Below, one piece after another: positions 9,319 to 36,746 of a DNA stretch of 36,746 bases. Position 1 is the first letter of the stretch. Every line of letters starts with the position of its first letter. The notes beneath the pieces were generated by a model, which was given only the letters and a program-made list of their open reading frames with translations, searched no databases and was not told where the DNA came from. The DNA comes from a virus, in IMG/VR virus record IMGVR_UViG_3300009428_000003, positions 1 through 36,746 of that record. The stretch is one strand, 5' to 3'. The position numbers were made by a program, and so were the translations under genes.

Positions 9319-12300
9319 ATTCTTTTCTTTTTAACTCGATAACGGTTAATTACTTTTTTATTATTTGATTTCCTTGTATCAACAAAATCAAGAATATTGT
9401 CCGACATTCTTTGAACGTCAATGACTTGTTCTGGTTTGTTTTGAATCGCTTTCCGCGTTTCTTTCATTTCTTGTAACAATGCACCGTCAACACTCGAACC
9501 GCTTTGAACGACTTGAAGCGCGTTGACTTGTGGTTGCATAAAGTTTGATCCGATCGAACCATTGTCAATTGATTTTGTTAATTGAATAAAGTTGTTCTTT
9601 CCGAATTTGTCCATTGTCGAACCCTTCCAAATCCCTTCGTTTCCTTCAGCTAATATCGGAACACCGAACCCGCGTTTTGAATGTGATTCGCCACGAATTA
9701 CGCCATTACTTATTGAATTACCGTTTTTGGATCCGTTTTGTCCCGCTTTCAATGAATCGTTTATGTCCCCGTGTTCGCCCGTTCCTTGACCGAATGAACT
9801 GATCGCGCTTTCAATACCTTGTAAGATGCTGAAATCACGTAAAACCGTTATGATCGCGTTCTTGTCACCAGAAGCCGAAGCGGAAGAATAAGCGTTGTAA
9901 AGTGCTTGAATCTTGTCAAGTGCGATTTGTTTCTTTTGCGCTTTGATCTTTTTTTGCTCCAAGTTCGCAAGTGCTGATTCTTCAAACGCTAAATTGTTGG
10001 ACAATCCTTCTTGCGCACGTTGTTCTTGCGTGTCAATGATTGACAATTGTTTTGCTTCCAATTTGTCCAATTCATCAATTTGTTTTTCAAGATTGTTTTG
10101 AAATGAATTGAAGATTGCTTCGGCGGTTTTGTCTTGAATGTCTTTGATCTTTTCCGATTTGTCTTTTTCAATGTCAACTTCTTTTTGCGCTCTCAATCTT
10201 GCAAGTTCAAGTTCTTGATCAATCGAATCTTTTCCAATCGATTTCCTTAGTTCAATTTCTTTTTTAAGTTGTTCGATTTTTAACGCGGTTAATTTTTCGT
10301 TAATTTCTTTTTGTGTTTCACCCGCCAACAACGACTTCAATTCTTCCGCTTTTGCGTTTCGTTCTTGGTCTTGAATGAAAAAGTCAAGGTTCAAATCTTT
10401 TCGCCTTTGATCAGCCTTTTTTTCAATTTCCGCAATTATTTCATCAAGTTTTTTGTATTCGGTTGTTGTGTCAGCAAATTTCTTTTGCTCCAACTTTGCC
10501 GAATCAATCGCGCGTTCTTCCTCCAATCGAATTGATTCAAGTTCGCGATCACGTTCCGAAATAAAATTTTCCGCTTTCAAATCTTCCAATTGCTGAATGA
10601 TTTCTTTTCGAATTTCGAAATGTTCTTGTTCTAAATCAATTGACGCTTGATCAAGATCGCGTTCTTGCGTCCTGGCTTCCCGAACAACTTCCAATAAACG
10701 CCCCTCCAATATTTCGGACAATTCATACCCACGAATCTTTTCATTCAACAATTTCGAATCGCTTGTTGCAATCAAATCGTTGATGTCAATTTGAGTTTTT
10801 GCAACCTTGTTGATTTCGGAAATTTCTTCAGCCAATATCTTTTTTTGAAGTTCTTCCGTTTCTTTCAACAATTTTTTTCGTTCGTCAAATTTCAATTTGT
10901 CACTTGCAATCAATTGTTCGTTAATCGTCTTTTGATTGTCAAACCCATCAATTAAAATGTCAAGATTCTTTTCGATTTCGTCTTGTTCCAATTGTCTTCG
11001 AACCTTTGAAAGTTGAAGCGATTTGATTTGTGCTTCTTTTCGTGCTGATAAAACTTCCCTTTCCGCGTCAAGTCTTTGAATTTTTTCATCCGTTGTCAAT
11101 TTTCTTTGACTTTCCGCAATTTTCAATTCTTCGTTGACCGCTTTCAAATTATTTTCGTCGATTTGTTGCGAAATCTTTGACGCTTTTTGTTGTGCGTCAA
11201 TACTTGTCAAAATCGCTTTTGTTCTTTCCTCAAATGATCGCGTCGCGTCCCCTTCGATTTCTTCCGCTTTTTCGCTGATTGATAGTTGCTTTTCTAATTC
11301 AACAGACAATTCCGCGTTTTCAAGTTTTATTTTATTAAGTATTTTTGACAACGCCATCGCCTTTGCAACCGCTTCGGAAATTGCACCGCCTAAACCTTCA
11401 AATGTTTCCGTGAATTGCTTTGTCGCTTCCGTGCTATCTTCCGAAATTGATTTGTTCAATTTTTTTATTTCGTCATCATTTGATTTGATTGATCCTTCAA
11501 TTGTTCCAAGTTCGTCATCAACGCCACCAAGCAAATTTTTCGCTTCCAAAAATATTTTTTTGATGCTTAATCCGAAGTTTTCAAATTTCAATCCAAGAAC
11601 GCTGAATTTGTCAGCCAATACCGAAAAGATGTTTCCCAAACCTTGACCGAAAGTGATCAAACGACCAACAACAACTTCCAGGATCGCACCGAATGACCGC
11701 ATCGCACCGTCAAGACCATTCAAACCCGCTTGCGTTTTTGTTAATGTTGCCAACAACGAACCAATTAAAACAAGAACGACACCGATTCCAGACGTAATCA
11801 ATGCCGCCTTCAAAATCTTCATTGCTTTCGCCGTTCCAAGTGTTGCAAGTCCGAACAATCGTTGCGTGAAAGTTGCTTTTTTCGTGACCTTATCTTGAAC
11901 CTCCGTTGCAACCGTTTCCGCTTGAACGCTATCTTTTAACTTGTCTTGTGCCTTTCGAAGTAATTCAACAATTGTGCTTAATTTACCCATAACGCCACCC
12001 AACGCGCCCGAAGTGTCAATCGCTCCAACCATCGATTCAGTGAACGCGCCCGTTTCTTCCAACGCTTCCTTCACTTGGTCCTTATAATTTCCGACCGATC
12101 TTTGTGTTTGTCCAACCGACTTGTCAACCGCTTTCAATTTTGTGTCCAATTCCGTGACGTTCAAAAGTAGTTTTCGCGCTTCCTCTGAGTTTTCTTTCCC
12201 CGCAACCGCTAAATCTTTATATTTTTTTCTTAAACTATTTAGAATTTTTGATTGCTTTTCATATTCCCCCGTCAATCCTTTGTTTCCTTTGGCTTGATCT

Positions 12301-22874: not shown

Positions 22875-23246
22875 TTATTCTTCGTCGCTTAGTGCATCAT
22901 TTAATTTCTTTGAAACCTTGATTTCCAATTGTCCCGAATTAATATTTTCATTCAATGTCTTTTCAAAATAACCACGATTCTTTCCTTTGGTTTTCAAAAA
23001 GAAAATTGTTGAAGCGGGATTCCCCCCTTTGATTTGTTTATGCAATTGAGATTCCGCGAAGTCCAAAACAACATTTTCAATGTCATCGGCTTGTTTTTTG
23101 AATTCTGGATCATTGTTGTAATAATCATAAAAAGTCGAGCGATTAAGGCCGACAATCTTGCAAGCCGTTGTTATAACGCCAAGACATTTTTCCATCGCTT
23201 CAAGCAATGCTTTTTTATTATGTTGGGTTTTGATGGTCTTATTCAT
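22875..23246 (-). CDS. terS: Terminase small subunit
   Basis: This 123-residue protein has an N-terminal helix-turn-helix (residues about 13-45: LLEAMEKCLGVITTACKIVGLNRSTFYDYYNNDPEF) followed by helices for oligomerisation and GNPASTIFFLKTKGKNRGY, a common segment of phage small terminases. It recognises phage DNA and presents it to the large subunit encoded 2 bases downstream. The start overlaps the methyltransferase gene by 8 bases. Confidence 0.92.
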   Translation of the reverse strand: MNKTIKTQHNKKALLEAMEKCLGVITTACKIVGLNRSTFYDYYNNDPEFKKQADDIENVVLDFAESQLHKQIKGGNPASTIFFLKTKGKNRGYFEKTLNENINSGQLEIKVSKKLNDALSDEE

Positions 23247-24444
23247 TGATCCAGGTTTCTTTTGTTATGTCTTCGCCGTTTCTTTTTACCGTGAATTTTC
23301 TGTTGTTGTCAGTCATGTATTTGACCCACCGTTTCACAATAACGTCGCAATATTTCGGATCAAGTTCTTGTCCGTAACATTTGCGATTCGTTTGTTCCGA
23401 TCCAATCAATGTCGATCCACTTCCAAGAAACAAATCAAGAACAACGTCATTTATTTCAATTATGTTTTCAATTGCCATCTTAGAAAGTTCAACGGGTTTT
23501 TGTGTTGGATGCAAGTACTTATTTGCTCGGTCTTTTACTACTGACCAAACACTCCCAATTCGTTTGCCTTTTATTTCTGCGCCTCTGTGATAAACTAAAG
23601 CAACTTCAAAATCTGTCACAAATGTTTTTTTCAAATCTCCGATTCCACCGCCCCCTTTATCCCAAATTATAATATTTGACAAATCTCCAATTGGATCGCA
23701 AAATTCAATCCATTGTTTCAACACTTTCCAAGAAGTCCAAACAAAAACAAAACCTTTTGAGCAAAGATGTAAGTTATTAATCCACTCTGTGACAAAAACA
23801 TCGTCATTTTTTAAAACTTCGAACTTTTCGGATTTTTCTCTCATGTTTGACTGATACGAAACACCATAGGGAGGATCAGTGAAAACCATGTCCGCTTTTT
23901 TACCGTTCATTAATTTTTCAACCGCGTCAATTTCCGTTGAACTCGCGCAATGAACTCGATGTCCGTTCAATTCGTAAAGATCGCCAAGAACCGTTTTTGG
24001 TTCGGTTGGAAGTTCACCGTTGAAATCGTCTTCTTCTGGCGCGTCAATTTCTGTGACAACGTCTTCAAAATATTCATTATCAAAACCCCAATCAATCAAA
24101 TCGTCTTGATCGAAATATTCAACTAAAAGTTCTTTGTCAAATTCACCCGTGTTTTTATTCAATCGAACATTCAATTCTTTTTCTTGGTCCAGGTTCAAAT
24201 CAAGTTCAACGCAAGGCATTTTTTTGAATCCCATTTCGCGGGAAACTTTTGTTCTTTGGTGTCCTCCAATTATAATCCCAAATCTTTCTTTGTTTGTGTT
24301 GACAATTACGGGATCAACCAAACCGAAACGACTGATTGAATCTTTTATTTTTTGCTTTTGTTCTTCTGATAATTTTCGCGGGTTGTATTCGGCTGAAATT
24401 AGTTTGTCAATATTCCATTCGACAATCTTCAAGTTGCTTTCCAT
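23239..24444 (-). CDS. ParB-like/DNA methyltransferase fusion
   Basis: This 401-residue protein has an N-terminal ParB/Srx-like domain at about residues 8-85 (NPRKLSEEQ, GLVDPVIV and IIIGGHQRTKVSREMG). A DNA N4/N6-methyltransferase follows, with the DPPY catalytic motif at 190-193 and the AdoMet-binding FLGSGS at 339-344. DPPY before FxGxG is the beta-class order. Such fusions are frequent next to phage terminase genes and probably methylate phage DNA to evade host restriction or mark packaging sites. It is the first gene after the iteron region and has a consensus promoter; its stop overlaps terS by 8 bases. No partner nuclease was seen, so it appears to be an orphan. Confidence 0.94.
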   Translation of the reverse strand: MESNLKIVEWNIDKLISAEYNPRKLSEEQKQKIKDSISRFGLVDPVIVNTNKERFGIIIGGHQRTKVSREMGFKKMPCVELDLNLDQEKELNVRLNKNTGEFDKELLVEYFDQDDLIDWGFDNEYFEDVVTEIDAPEEDDFNGELPTEPKTVLGDLYELNGHRVHCASSTEIDAVEKLMNGKKADMVFTDPPYGVSYQSNMREKSEKFEVLKNDDVFVTEWINNLHLCSKGFVFVWTSWKVLKQWIEFCDPIGDLSNIIIWDKGGGGIGDLKKTFVTDFEVALVYHRGAEIKGKRIGSVWSVVKDRANKYLHPTQKPVELSKMAIENIIEINDVVLDLFLGSGSTLIGSEQTNRKCYGQELDPKYCDVIVKRWVKYMTDNNRKFTVKRNGEDITKETWINE

Positions 24445-24470
24445 AATTCGATAACTCTTTTCGATTCATT

Positions 24471-24501
24471 CAAATATAACTATTTAGATCGAATTATCAA
24501 A
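24471..24501 (-). promoter_or_regulatory. Consensus promoter of the methyltransferase-terminase operon
   Basis: Minus strand TTTG (24501-24498), a 19-base spacer and TATATTTG (24478-24471) match the Bacteroidota consensus exactly. The start codon is 27 bases downstream of the -7 box. TGACGC repeats begin 2 bases upstream of the -33 element, a suitable place for an activator or repressor. Confidence 0.8.
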
Positions 24502-24503
24502 AG

Positions 24504-24849
24504 TGACGCATAGAAACCCGAAATGACGCTTATGTGACGCTTAGACCCGTTTTTTGACTTAAAGTTTTACTTCAATCCGTCTACCCCTAATTACCTCTTT
24601 ATTAGTTCTTTATATCTTTATTTCTCTTTTTGACGGCTAAAAACAGTAAAAATAAAAGAAAAGGAAAAGAGAAATACAAAGTATAAAGGGTAATAGGGAA
24701 AAAATAAGCGTCAACGCGCCTGCGATATAGTGATAGCCGAACGCGAACCCCTTGACGGGTCATTTTTTAAGCGTCACGAATCGACCTTGTAAGCGTCATT
24801 TGATCAAAAACAAGGCAAAAAAAACGCCACCTTCAAAAAGTGACGCTTG
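24504..24849. repeat. Iteron region A (candidate origin or operator)
   Basis: Seven TGACGC-type 9-mers occur here: TGACGCATA 24504-24512, TGACGCTTA 24524-24532 and 24535-24543; inverted TAAGCGTCA at 24705-24713, 24768-24776 and 24790-24798; and TGACGCTTG 24841-24849. Between the two groups are ACTTCAATCCGTCT (24569-24582), TTCTTTATATCTTTATTT (24606-24623), TGACGGCTAAAA from 24631, and a purine/pyrimidine-asymmetric AT-rich tract to about 24705. The same elements, with the same 23-base and 7-base gaps, recur at 31.6-31.8 kb. This fills the only gene-free stretch over 300 bases (24445-24870), together with the promoter and a terminator. Confidence 0.8.
24817..24848 (-). terminator. Rho-independent terminator at the end of the early region
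   Basis: On the minus-strand transcript AAGCGTCAC (24848-24840) pairs with GTGGCGUUU (24830-24822), including two G-U pairs. The loop has 9 bases and a run of eight U follows (24824-24817). The wobble pairs make it specific to minus-strand RNA. The stem includes the last TGACGC repeat. It lies 22 bases after the stop at 24871. Confidence 0.78.
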
Positions 24850-24870
24850 ATTTGACTTGCGTTTTTAATT

Positions 24871-25101
24871 TTATTTATTGATCCAATGATCGATTTGTTC
24901 CTTTATTTCGAATATATTGAAACTGTTTTCGTTTGCTTTTATCCATCCGTAGAAAATTACCCAAACGGCGAACACGGACCAAAACGAATATTTCACAACT
25001 GGATCGTTGTTCAGCTGATCAAGTAACAACCAGAGAGCGATCCAAAACGACAATTCGAATCTTTGCGGGATATTATCTTTTGATATTACGTTTCTTTTCA
25101 T
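24871..25101 (-). CDS. Small membrane protein, last gene of the early region
   Basis: This 76-residue protein has two hydrophobic segments: LSFWIALWLLLDQL and YSFWSVFAVWVIFYGWI. The C-terminal tail is charged (FEIKEQIDHWINK). The start overlaps the previous ORF by 29 bases, and a terminator follows 22 bases after the stop. It is probably an inner-membrane protein made early in infection. There is no known family; superinfection exclusion would be one possible role, without direct evidence. Confidence 0.72.
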   Translation of the reverse strand: MKRNVISKDNIPQRFELSFWIALWLLLDQLNNDPVVKYSFWSVFAVWVIFYGWIKANENSFNIFEIKEQIDHWINK

Positions 25102-29168: not shown

Positions 29169-31544
29169 TTAAAACGGTAAACTTAATCCGTCGCGCGTTA
29201 TTGGATTGATTTCGGTCTTGATGTAACAACCGCGACGCGGTGTCCTAAATGGTTTATATTCGAAGCCTTTAAAATCACAATACTTTTTGACCCAACTCGA
29301 AAACAATTTGTTTGTCATCGATTTTCGAGAGTCTGGATATTCTTCTTTGAATTCGTTCACTATTTCCGACGGGTAAATTTTGCAATCTAATGAAAGATTG
29401 TCATCCGTGACCCAATCCCAAAATTCTTTGGATGTGTTTTGAATGAATCGTTTTGCGTTCGCGTTGATTGATTCCGTACAGATCAAACCAAAGTTCAAAA
29501 ACTTTTGAAGACATTCAATCATGTATTGATCGAAGGAAACCCAATCGTCAAGTTCCCACTGATCAAACAAAAGTTTTCCAAATTCTGTCAAAGGTGTTCG
29601 ATGTTGGTTGAAATATTGAAAAAATTCAACTTCGAATCGTCTTCGATCATGCGATGAACCTGCACCATTTATCACATAATTCGTTGTAATTACTATTTTA
29701 GGCGACTTTTCGAAAGGTATGAATATTTCATCCTTGTTTTTCCTATTCACGGATATTCCTTCAGTAATTAACGAAAACAATGATTCGAAGTTGAACTTTT
29801 TCTTTACATCGTCAAACGCCAGGATTTGAGTATCAACCGAAATTCGTTGATAATTGAACTCCCCTTTGTTTGGATCAAAAACCTTTCCGTCAATCTTGAC
29901 CATCTTTTTGAATTGTGAAAGTGCGGTCAAAACTAAACTTTTACCGCTCCCCCCGTTCGGATGGTCGTTGATTTCTTGATCATTGAAAATGATTGCTTTT
30001 TGATCAGTCTTGTCTTTGTGTGATGACATCAAATATCCAAGAACCGTTTCCATTGTATTGATTCGTTTCGGATCGTCTGCACAAACCCGCTGAACAAATG
30101 AACGAAAGTCATTTTCAACCGTTTCGGATTCGATAAAATTACGCTTGATTATTTGATCGTCCCAAATGTAACCGTCGCAATCTATAAATTCAAGCAACTT
30201 TTTATTGTCTTTTTGAACCTCAACAACCCCGTTTTGATAATAAAGAAAACATTTGTCTTTCGTGTCCTGGATCATTTCAAGGTCGATCGAATCCAAAAAA
30301 GACAAATATAAATCTTGAAAATATTTTGTTGATGACGCGAAGAAATTCCAAATTTTCAATTCCTCTTTGTCAAAAAGATAATTCAAAACGAAATCTTTAA
30401 TTTTTTGCGCTGAAGATGTTTTTACGATATTCGAACTAATATGAACAAAAACGGGCGAATCGGCTTTTTCTGGATAATATTTGTAAAAACCCGAAGTTTC
30501 TAAAAAGTGTTTAAACAAAATGTTGTCGATCACGATTCTTTGACCCGTCTTCCCCTCAATGATTTGCCAAAAAACAATTTCCGTTGAATTCTCTTTGATG
30601 TGTTTGATCGTTTCATCGTCAACCGTTGGAGTCGCTTTTTTTATTTCTTCAGACGAAACGCCTTTTTTGACTTGCAATTCAATCTTTCGGAATGTGTCGC
30701 GGTCCTCGAAATACTTTGTCCCGTGTTCGTTTCGTTTCTTGTATGCTGAACGAACGGTTGTTGTTATTTCGTGTTCCTTCATTGAACCTCGAACAACGTC
30801 GTGAATGATAATCGATTCCGCAATGTCTTGATTGATTCCGTAATTGTTCAACGATGAAGCCAAAATAAATAGGTTGTTGTTTCGGTTTCCGTCAACAAGA
30901 TCGTATTCACGATTCCACCAAACAAGAAGCCGATCCGAAATTTGCTTTGTATCTTCCAAGATAATTTGTGGAGCGCGTTCGAAAAACGAATACCCTTGTT
31001 CAGAATGTTTTTTTGTCCATTCCTTTGAATCATTATTGATGAATATTGTTGGATCGTAAGATTCGTAACAAACGCGCGAAACATTTTTGCAAGACGTGTC
31101 AAAATATTCACAATCGAAATGTTTTTCCAATGCGGTGAAATAAAGTTTGTGTTCTTCTTTGTCGCATTTCGGAATCTTGACAATCATTTTCAAACCGTTT
31201 CCGCTTGGTGATGTAAAGACCGACATTGTAAATTCGGACGCTTCCAAAGTATCGCGCCACGTTTGAAAGATTTCATCGTTTGGGAAACCGTCAAAATCAA
31301 GACAAATCAAACCCGAATGTTCTTCAAGTGCGTCGTCTTTTCGTTGGTTGAATTTACCCGAAAACAAAAAACACGGTAATTTCTTTTTAAGATCGTTTCG
31401 TTTTTCTTTGTCGGTTTCGTTTCTGATTGATTCTAAAAGTTCTTTTGATGAACCGTTTTTGATTCTTGTGAAGACCCGTTCCACATCTAAGTGAAACGCC
31501 CCACATTTCGGATTGAATAAATCCTTGTAACAAGTTATAGTCAT
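29169..31544 (-). CDS. VirE_N-type primase / SF3-like helicase fusion
   Basis: This 791-residue replication protein has an N-terminal VirE_N/BT4734-like primase-polymerase domain (about 40-175) containing LDFDG with Asp83 and Asp85 and SPSGNGLKMIV (112-122). A helical linker with NRNNNLFILASSLNNYGI (about 220-238) resembles PriCT regions. The C-terminal helicase has Walker A GGSGKS (531-536), Walker B-like AFDDV (576-580) and a sensor Asn in VITTNYV (618-624). It would prime and unwind at the phage origin. It is the first gene downstream of iteron region B. Confidence 0.92.
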   Translation of the reverse strand: MTITCYKDLFNPKCGAFHLDVERVFTRIKNGSSKELLESIRNETDKEKRNDLKKKLPCFLFSGKFNQRKDDALEEHSGLICLDFDGFPNDEIFQTWRDTLEASEFTMSVFTSPSGNGLKMIVKIPKCDKEEHKLYFTALEKHFDCEYFDTSCKNVSRVCYESYDPTIFINNDSKEWTKKHSEQGYSFFERAPQIILEDTKQISDRLLVWWNREYDLVDGNRNNNLFILASSLNNYGINQDIAESIIIHDVVRGSMKEHEITTTVRSAYKKRNEHGTKYFEDRDTFRKIELQVKKGVSSEEIKKATPTVDDETIKHIKENSTEIVFWQIIEGKTGQRIVIDNILFKHFLETSGFYKYYPEKADSPVFVHISSNIVKTSSAQKIKDFVLNYLFDKEELKIWNFFASSTKYFQDLYLSFLDSIDLEMIQDTKDKCFLYYQNGVVEVQKDNKKLLEFIDCDGYIWDDQIIKRNFIESETVENDFRSFVQRVCADDPKRINTMETVLGYLMSSHKDKTDQKAIIFNDQEINDHPNGGSGKSLVLTALSQFKKMVKIDGKVFDPNKGEFNYQRISVDTQILAFDDVKKKFNFESLFSLITEGISVNRKNKDEIFIPFEKSPKIVITTNYVINGAGSSHDRRRFEVEFFQYFNQHRTPLTEFGKLLFDQWELDDWVSFDQYMIECLQKFLNFGLICTESINANAKRFIQNTSKEFWDWVTDDNLSLDCKIYPSEIVNEFKEEYPDSRKSMTNKLFSSWVKKYCDFKGFEYKPFRTPRRGCYIKTEINPITRDGLSLPF

Positions 31545-31567
31545 TGTAATATTTTAAAGTTGCGGTT

Positions 31568-31799
31568 TAAATATAACATTTTTTTATTCATTTGTGACGC
31601 TTAAATTCTGTTTATGACGGGTCATTGACGCTTAAACTTTTAAAGTATCACTTCAATCCGTCTGGTCTTAACTGTCTATTATTTACTTCTTTATATCTTT
31701 ATTTTTTATTTTGACGGCTAAAAAAAAGAAAAAGAATAAAAAATAAAAAAGAAAAAGAATAGAAAGAAAGCTAATAAGGAAATAAGCGTCAATGCGTCA
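31568..31799. repeat. Iteron region B (candidate origin or operator)
   Basis: TGACGCTTA occurs at 31595-31603 and 31626-31634, inverted TAAGCGTCA at 31783-31791, and a shorter TGCGTCA at 31793-31799. ACTTCAATCCGTCT (31650-31663), TTCTTTATATCTTTATTT (31687-31704) and TGACGGCTAAAA from 31712 match region A with identical internal gaps. A purine/pyrimidine-asymmetric tract of about 60 bases follows. TGACGGGTCATT (31615-31626) is also shared with region A (24753-24764). A weak -7-like TATATTTA (31575-31568) lies before the primase gene. The right end touches the stop of the DnaA-like gene. Confidence 0.8.
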
Positions 31800-32219
31800 T
31801 TTTGTTAATTCTTGATTGATCTTGTCCAGAAATTCCATTGTTGGCGTGTAACAAGTATCGACATCGTTTTGAATCTTTTTGTTTGAGTGCGTCACGGTTG
31901 AATGATTGATCTTCATAAAATCACCGATTGCGTTGTTTGACAAACTTGTATGTTTTCGCGCGTAATGACAAAACATTTGACGAATCCAAAGAATCTGTCT
32001 GTCTTTCGACGTTCTTATGCTTTCGCGGTCGATTTTAGCGACTTTAGAAAAAGTTCCGAGTATTGACACCAAACTATTGTTTGAATGCTTTAAATCGCGT
32101 TCTTTCATCAATAAACCGTGTGCGTCATCAAAGTTCAAACCCCGCTTTGATAATAAATGAATGAATCGCATATCGGATTTGGTATAAATCCCGCTAATCA
32201 CTTTATTTTTTTTATTCAT
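31797..32219 (-). CDS. DnaA domain IV-like DNA-binding protein (putative initiator)
   Basis: In this 140-residue protein, residues 71-120 resemble the C-terminal DNA-binding domain of DnaA: RQILWIRQMFCHYARKH, then SLSNNAIGDFMKINHSTVTHSNKKI, where HSTVTHS matches the DnaA signature (usually DHSTV.HA). No ATPase domain is present. Stand-alone DnaA-C-like proteins occur in Bacteroidota phages. It probably binds the TGACGCTTA repeats, which begin at its own stop codon, and may start replication or regulate the flanking operons; the target is inferred. The gene is followed by the primase-helicase gene. Confidence 0.87.
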   Translation of the reverse strand: MNKKNKVISGIYTKSDMRFIHLLSKRGLNFDDAHGLLMKERDLKHSNNSLVSILGTFSKVAKIDRESIRTSKDRQILWIRQMFCHYARKHTSLSNNAIGDFMKINHSTVTHSNKKIQNDVDTCYTPTMEFLDKINQELTK

Positions 32220-33699: not shown

Positions 33700-33732
33700 A
33701 GTTATAAAAATGTTAGTGAACAAATTTATATA
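33700..33732 (-). promoter_or_regulatory. Early-type promoter box 3
   Basis: Minus strand TAAATTTG (33728-33721) followed by TTCACTAACATTTTTATA. The -7 and the following TTCAsT are shared with boxes 1, 2 and 4; the downstream part diverges. A leader of about 50 bases ends in AACGCAACTAAAAATG at 33662. No clear -33 element is seen. Confidence 0.7.
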
Positions 33733-35829: not shown

Positions 35830-36746
35830 CTACTTACAAAATTTTCCCAAATAATTTTGAACAAAATCTTTGTATTTTAATTCTAAACTTACAAAATTAG
35901 TTGTCGAATTATATTCTATTGTTTCCATCGTGTCGAATACCACTTCTTTTTGTACGTAGTTTTTTTTGTGATTGTTCAAATTATAATCTGTAAATATTAA
36001 TTTGTTTGCAAAATTATGGTATTCAATTATTTCATCAGTGATGCAATCTGGAATCAACATCGTTTGACAAGAATAGTTGTTGATCAATTCCGTTCGGTTT
36101 CTTTTTGAATTTCTGTTTGAATAAATAATATATTCGTCCTCGTATTCCGCCTGGCGATTTCCGAAGAAACCTTGAACCCTTAAACCATCAACCCAATTAA
36201 GACCCGTGAAATCAAAATCAATATGTTCCAAATATCGGTTCATTACTGATTGAATTCGAAACGTCCCGTTTGCGCGTTCTTGACTATATTGTTTTAAATC
36301 AAAACTAATACTAAATTCCGTTATTGCTCCACTTATGAAATTTGATTCAACTTTCAACCTATACGATCCTTCGCCTTCCAACAATAATACTTTTTGCCAT
36401 TGGATTTGTATTCCTTTGTAATTTGGATAATTCGCAAGCGTTCCGAAATCGTAATATATTCCGTAATCGTTGTTGATGATTGGCAAATCTGTAACGCCAT
36501 TTTTCTGAAGTGTTAATGTGATCGTTTCGCTTGAAAAGTTTCTTTTAAACAAAAAAGAATTGATGTCGTTTTGCCATTCGCTTGGATCACTTAATGAAGC
36601 CAATACGGGCGACTTATAACAACATTCGTCAAGTGCTTCCGTGACAATTGAAGTCGGTTGTTGTGGTGTTGTTGGAACAAGACAAATCGATTGCGTCACA
36701 ATTGGATTGTTTCCAAGTGTTCCCGTTGATCCGATTTCCGTGTTGA
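35830..36746 (-). CDS. Tail-associated structural protein, C-terminal part (split by contig ends)
   Basis: This is the continuation of the gene at 778-1; the frame enters at the right edge and ends with TAG at 35830-35832. Bases 36624-36746 duplicate 1-123, so residues 261-523 are encoded from 36623. The part has repeated aromatic/Asn-rich beta-like segments (YYDFGTLANYPNYKGIQIQWQKVLL) and a Cys pair CC at 260-261. A GTG at 36699 could be mistaken for a start but is an internal codon. The role is unknown; late tail position suggests a tip or host-contact protein. Confidence 0.85.
   Translation of the reverse strand, partial: NTEIGSTGTLGNNPIVTQSICLVPTTPQQPTSIVTEALDECCYKSPVLASLSDPSEWQNDINSFLFKRNFSSETITLTLQKNGVTDLPIINNDYGIYYDFGTLANYPNYKGIQIQWQKVLLLEGEGSYRLKVESNFISGAITEFSISFDLKQYSQERANGTFRIQSVMNRYLEHIDFDFTGLNWVDGLRVQGFFGNRQAEYEDEYIIYSNRNSKRNRTELINNYSCQTMLIPDCITDEIIEYHNFANKLIFTDYNLNNHKKNYVQKEVVFDTMETIEYNSTTNFVSLELKYKDFVQNYLGKFCK
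36624..36746. repeat. Terminal direct repeat, copy 2 (circular closure)
   Basis: This is the second copy of bases 1-123, identical throughout. Removing one copy restores the complete 523-residue tail gene (778 to 1, then 36623 to 35830). Confidence 0.95.

Follow-up and report, generated by a model that had tools for sequence, protein, structure and literature searches.

The stretch between a small DnaA-like gene and a primase-helicase gene in this virus carries a set of TGACG repeats, raising the question of what these repeats do and which protein reads them. The window analyzed here is the whole 36,746-nt stretch of the IMG/VR record IMGVR_UViG_3300009428_000003 (positions 1 to 36,746). It possesses an exact 123-nt terminal direct repeat (1–123 and 36624–36746), and both its ends are joined in a contig of a relative (L002; L-numbers denote related loci or contigs in the comparison); the window therefore very probably represents the entire genome, circularly permuted and about 36.6 kb long, of a tailed phage. 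It carries genes for portal, terminase and tape measure, and the main genes lie on the − strand, in the transcription order DnaA domain-IV-like gene, region B, primase-helicase, further genes, region A, ParB_N-methyltransferase, terminase and portal (Table 1). Judged by their promoters and relatives, these phages and their kin belong to hosts of the Bacteroidota. No known RNA family matched within the window. The comparison set comprised about 60 related viruses, and 80 related loci were obtained by an alignment search with the primase-helicase; no description of how replication starts in this phage group was found in the literature searched.

Region B, the intergenic array, contains six TGACG sites (31568–31799), arranged as two groups and one central site and flanking an AT-rich core. 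Elsewhere in the genome, windows of the same length hold at most four such sites (mean 0.70), and none of 5000 order-1 Markov versions of B reached six (mean 0.17). The preliminary description had located repeats in the gap between the two genes and overlapping the end of the DnaA-like gene; both observations were borne out, the outermost site including the stop codon of that gene, while the position assigned to B needed correction, as by the direction of transcription it lies downstream of the DnaA-like gene. The central site is unchanged in four copies of B, and the site closest to the promoter is separated from the −7 box by 19 nt (counted from GCGTCA), i.e., it occupies the −33 position. 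The AT-rich core is a candidate unwinding element. A conserved hairpin or cruciform within it was considered and dropped (folding z −0.21 for B and −2.13 for A); GC skew of the window gave no usable signal and no clear origin at B. Reasoning from sequence and from analogy with known systems, we suggest that region B is probably a replication origin and, at the same time, the operator of the primase-helicase gene.

Table 1. Features of the two repeat regions and their neighboring genes (window coordinates).
Feature	Position	Strand
ParB_N + N6/N4 methyltransferase gene, downstream of A	23239..24444	−
Region A, second array, nine TGACG sites, early/late junction	24445..24870	−
Consensus Bacteroidota promoter TTTG-N19-TATATTTG, packaging-side operon	24471..24501	−
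Core of A common to region B	24559..24718	−
Terminator-like hairpin CGTCAC...GTGGCG with a T run behind it, at the entry of A (folding z −3.76)	24817..24846	−
Primase-helicase, proposed repeat reader	29169..31544	−
Region B, iteron array between the two genes, containing the AT-rich core and the promoter of the primase-helicase; proposed origin/operator	31545..31796	−
−7 box TATATTTA, 31 nt ahead of the primase-helicase ATG	31568..31575	−
TGACG site (TGACGCTT), closest to the promoter	31595..31599	+
TGACG site (TGACGGGT)	31615..31619	+
TGACG site (TGACGCTT)	31626..31630	+
Core of B common to region A	31640..31798	−
AT-rich core between site groups, 82% AT over 120 nt, pyrimidine/purine strand asymmetry	31666..31785	.
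Central TGACG site (TGACGGCT; coding strand reads AGCCGTCA)	31712..31716	+
TGACG site (TGACGCTT)	31787..31791	−
TGACG site that includes the TGA terminating the DnaA-like gene	31795..31799	−
DnaA domain-IV-like protein (140 aa) lacking an AAA+ domain	31797..32219	−

In dozens of related loci the primase-helicase is preceded by a DnaA domain-IV-like ORF, and most of the intergenics between the two carry phage-specific repeats (CGTCAC, GCGTCAT, TTGTCAT, CGCC, GTGGAAT, ACCGGAAT and others). In 11 distinct phages the two genes are spaced by exactly 212 nt. Across whole contigs of distant relatives, the main cluster of the respective motif falls in this intergenic; the weaker clusters checked in those contigs lie inside coding sequence. 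Copies of the A type occur in close relatives only, and none was found in distant ones. Since B-type intergenics are family-wide and A-type ones confined to close relatives, B represents the general form and A was added in a particular lineage, which reverses the earlier ranking of B as the second copy.

In three relatives, the right-hand iterons are separated from the primase-helicase by an inserted HNH-like ORF of homing type, which brings a TATATTTG box and a hairpin of its own (L051, 4535–5228; L053; L067, 5249–6001). In L022 (MW202828.1), TGTCGA/TCGACATA repeats surround an AT-rich stretch before the primase-helicase (11750–11946); the dnaA-like gene is located 2.4 kb from this repeat set, and the region includes a run TTACTACTACTATT resembling DnaA-trios.

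A −7 box had been reported beside the repeats of each region, and both boxes were found where described on the − strand (TATATTTA at 31575–31568 and TATATTTG at 24478–24471). The pattern TAnnTTT[G/A], which fits the Bacteroidota −7 element (PMC7366714, PMC6847099), is present in 30 of 37 distinct intergenics, compared with 3.3 expected from shuffles, and missing from the other seven; it is mostly located 26–32 nt ahead of the primase-helicase start. Checked against the Bacteroidota sigma-A promoter (−33 TTTG, −7 TANNTTTG), region A has both elements; the B promoter is off consensus, as TATATTTA ends in A for G and TTTG is missing at −33, an element that is weak in Flavobacterium (PMC6847099). 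Where the −7 box is present, the nearest upstream repeat ends 6–19 nt before it, and a further repeat overlaps its last base in three phages (L068, L075, L102). At such distances the repeats would fall inside or beside the polymerase footprint at the primase-helicase promoter. The idea that a protein bound there could affect transcription thus stands, given the conserved box and the adjacent repeats; its other part does not, as the promoter serves the primase-helicase instead and the DnaA-like protein is not supported as the binder. Autoregulation of the DnaA-like gene, also proposed, lacks anatomical support: the 200 nt upstream of this gene are free of repeats in 27 of 28 phages. The better candidate for autoregulation, if there is any, would be the primase-helicase gene, and repression of its promoter by occlusion would be the simplest inference.

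Cassettes of the GTGCAA type have a longer leader in three relatives (L165, L171, L186), in which a stem-loop, AACCCCTGCC...GGCAGGGG, lies between promoter and start codon and is possibly an attenuator. Three similar promoter-like elements without TGACG sites were also observed on the − strand of the window (34716–34659, 33728–33693 and 27161–27126). They read TAAATTTGTTCA[CG]TA and, some 20 nt further along, TA[TC][CT]TTTA. They may be promoters of early genes, and that at 33728 might serve the operon which includes the DnaA-like gene.

The TGACG sites of region A are to be compared with a maximum of five in windows of its length elsewhere in the genome. Its common core with B spans about 160 nt (72.8–77.9% identity in blastn comparison of the relatives' copies). 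One TGACG site is found within the stem of the terminator-like hairpin, and the promoter boxes, TATATTTG and TTTG, are invariant in six copies from relatives. Upstream of the −33 element, the nearest site directly adjoins its TTTTG, a placement that would be compatible with activation. Region A is kept in six contigs, and in two of them it has other gene neighbors.

The first gene of the packaging operon encodes a ParB N-terminal domain fused to an N6/N4 DNA methyltransferase. In the two contigs with altered neighbors, A is present at 92–95% identity (L028, 1–1700, and L030, 1740–2540, versus window 23239–25101), and other genes stand downstream of it in place of the ParB_N-methyltransferase; upstream, L028 has the end of a different, cytosine-methyltransferase-like gene. 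The ParB-methyltransferase was considered as the repeat reader and discarded, as it is missing from that place in both contigs, where A persists.

Both regions could, alternatively, be operators only, controlling two promoters through which a phage protein switches early to late transcription, with the origin located elsewhere. This would account for the conserved −7 box of B-type regions, for repeats that adjoin or overlap the core promoter, for the terminator and consensus promoter that A places before the packaging genes and for the persistence of A when the neighboring gene changes. However, the flanking sites and long AT-rich core, together with the constant 212 nt in 11 phages, exceed what a promoter needs, and the absence of A from the distant relatives searched means that the general function is something other than a two-site switch. 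We therefore regard a purely regulatory role as unlikely and retain the combined origin and operator as the preferred reading of B.

The earlier candidate for the protein that reads the repeats was the DnaA-like protein, proposed to bind those of A and B as an initiator and/or transcription regulator. Its assignment to the helix-turn-helix domain IV of DnaA is genuine (Pfam, 1e-10; profile match to 1J1V, 1.1e-12; Foldseek matches to DnaA domain IV), and its gene adjoins B, sharing its stop codon with a TGACG site. PF08299 is the sole Pfam domain in the 140 residues, where no AAA+ ATPase domain was found, and INPHARED yielded no close phage records for the protein. The relatives argue against it as the reader. 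In three pairs of phages (L166/L171, L183/L186, L196/L202), the DnaA-like proteins are one residue apart, outside the recognition helix, whereas the arrays are unrelated (GTCAT versus GTGCAA) and the primase-helicases about 25% identical. The same recognition helix, NQSHATVING, is found with GTCAT, GTAGTG and GTGCAA arrays; reciprocally, a CGTCAC array is retained while DnaA-like identity drops to 18%, the primase-helicases being 75–98% identical. Among 19 phages whose primase-helicase sequences were available, DnaA-like identity is only 0.006 higher for the same than for different repeat types, a difference as large arising in 625 of 2000 permutations, and a rank test over 1081 pairs revealed no link between recognition helix and repeats beyond overall protein similarity (partial correlation 0.01). 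Neither A nor B contains a DnaA box (TTWTNCACA), of which the whole window has 3 compared with 8.8 expected.

One comparison had at first favored this protein: between L097 and L078, whose DnaA-like proteins are 89% identical, the helix changes from NQTH to EKSH and the GTCA sites all change to CGTAGTGA. The hint was undone by L179/L180, where NQSH occurs with a GTAGTG array. On the evidence of these alignments, the DnaA-like gene is a linked neighbor of the array and primase-helicase and not the reader of the repeats, and binding by its product has become very unlikely. This corrects a natural misassignment: a DnaA-like gene adjoining repeats is not thereby their reader.

The repeats change instead with the primase-helicase. 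In the comparison of 19 phages, its identity is 0.83–1.00 in same-repeat pairs and 0.22–0.64 in different-repeat pairs, and the difference of 0.602 between the two classes was equaled in none of 2000 permutations. Homology at the DNA level breaks off at the DnaA-like stop codon and returns beyond the primase-helicase; in L183, where it is back at the primase stop, precisely the array plus the primase-helicase were exchanged. In some alleles the primase-helicase is followed by one or two additional small ORFs, with 94 aa in the case of L186; in other phages this position is taken by different ORFs. As far as sequence comparison can tell, the array travels with the primase-helicase, in inheritance as in exchange, within a single cassette that begins at the DnaA-like stop codon. 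The joint change of repeats and enzyme, the cassette ends and the reciprocal CGTCAC case all assign the array to the primase-helicase, although co-inheritance could be linkage without recognition, the array being adjacent to the primase gene. Reading by another product of the exchanged cassette, for which the extra small ORFs would be candidates, or by a host factor is the least probable explanation, since the L183 cassette holds only the array and primase-helicase and a host factor leaves different arrays within one phage clade unexplained unless the hosts differ too.

The primase-helicase, our proposed reader, has a BT4734-like N-terminus (PF08800, 1.6e-21), a weak PriCT-1 match and a P-loop GGSGKS (NPNGGSGKS in a five-phage alignment); the enzymes of the GTGCAA type possess a PF09250 Prim-Pol N-terminus. 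By annotation, related primase-helicases are encoded on the Salinibacter plasmids pSR14 and pSR31. Variation concentrates toward the end of the protein: L078 and L097 (GTCAT versus GTAGTG) share 24% identity in the primase C-terminus and 89% in the DnaA-like protein, and between L172 and L180, which carry the same two repeat types, primase-helicase identity is lowest in the last ~150 residues. The C-terminal domain, residues ~645–791, is predicted as H-E-H-H-E-E in a low-confidence model (pLDDT about 66) with weak structural matches (best Z 7.4, PurR winged helix), hinting at a winged-helix-like fold. A PDB sequence search with the primase C-terminus gave no useful match; the P4 origin-binding domain is absent among the structural matches listed for the model, which excludes nothing.

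We hypothesize that the primase-helicase binds the iterons that flank the AT-rich core, probably via its variable C-terminal domain, and that the bound protein would open the core and then prime replication there. As an iteron overlaps or abuts the −33/−7 region, the same binding would lower primase-helicase transcription, so that a rising level of the protein would limit expression of its own gene. Region A may represent a second origin or a fork-pause site, like SPP1 oriR or P4 crr, and possibly also a control point (operator) of the late promoter. A broader scheme, which we offer tentatively and consider doubtful, would make one primase-helicase the initiator, autorepressor and, via the duplicated origin, the switch between replication, late transcription and packaging-ready DNA, with cassettes of Bacteroidota phages interchanged like plug-in replicons while the DnaA-like gene in front stays constant. 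With our preferred reading of B, a large phage group gains a proposed origin, and the cassette swaps provide natural pairs for asking which part of the primase-helicase sets origin specificity.

Iteron plasmid origins and bacterial oriC with DnaA resemble region B in combining repeats and an AT-rich unwinding element near an initiator gene. Unlike oriC and DnaA, however, A and B are devoid of DnaA boxes, and the DnaA-like protein consists of domain IV only, without the AAA+ ATPase. Satellite phage P4 possesses two cis-acting iteron regions, ori and crr. Its alpha protein, according to the account of Yeo et al. (2002) given in PMC4234260, combines primase and helicase in one polypeptide with a winged-helix origin-binding domain. 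For our primase-helicase, no sequence match to P4 alpha was found; region A differs from the P4 arrangement in its promoter and terminator features, and the winged-helix prediction here is weak.

Bacillus phage SPP1 has two distant, similarly built origins, oriL and oriR, with direct repeats and an AT-rich unwinding element, one at the replication genes and the other between genes of the late region. The stalling of forks at oriR is proposed to switch the replication mode. The origin-binding protein, gp38, is a distinct product whose own gene contains oriL, and ~13 kb separate oriL from oriR (PMC6316719, PMC3485210). Regions A and B likewise form two distant, similarly built combinations of repeats and AT-rich sequence. 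However, both arrays lie between genes, with ~7 kb separating them, and it is the primase-helicase that we propose as their reader.

In PICIs, two iteron sets always flank an AT-rich region beside pri-rep, and the Pri-Rep-ori module of PICIs and SaPIs places a primase and a replication initiator, sometimes fused, beside an iteron origin and occurs in allelic Pri-Rep variants (PMC6092414). Two repeat sets around an AT-rich region are also found in B and recur with other repeats in the relatives; primase and helicase are united in one polypeptide, as in initiators of the PICI/P4 type, and iterons and initiator form matched, co-inherited pairs, as in PICIs and P4. The array lies 5′ of the primase-helicase and overlaps its promoter, whereas the PICI ori is 3′ of rep, and region B is therefore likened to a PICI origin in its working only and not filed as one. 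The carrier differs as well, being a complete tailed phage with a BT4734-like primase domain and a DnaA domain-IV-like gene ahead. A counterpart of the PICI-type module in complete tailed phages would widen the known picture.
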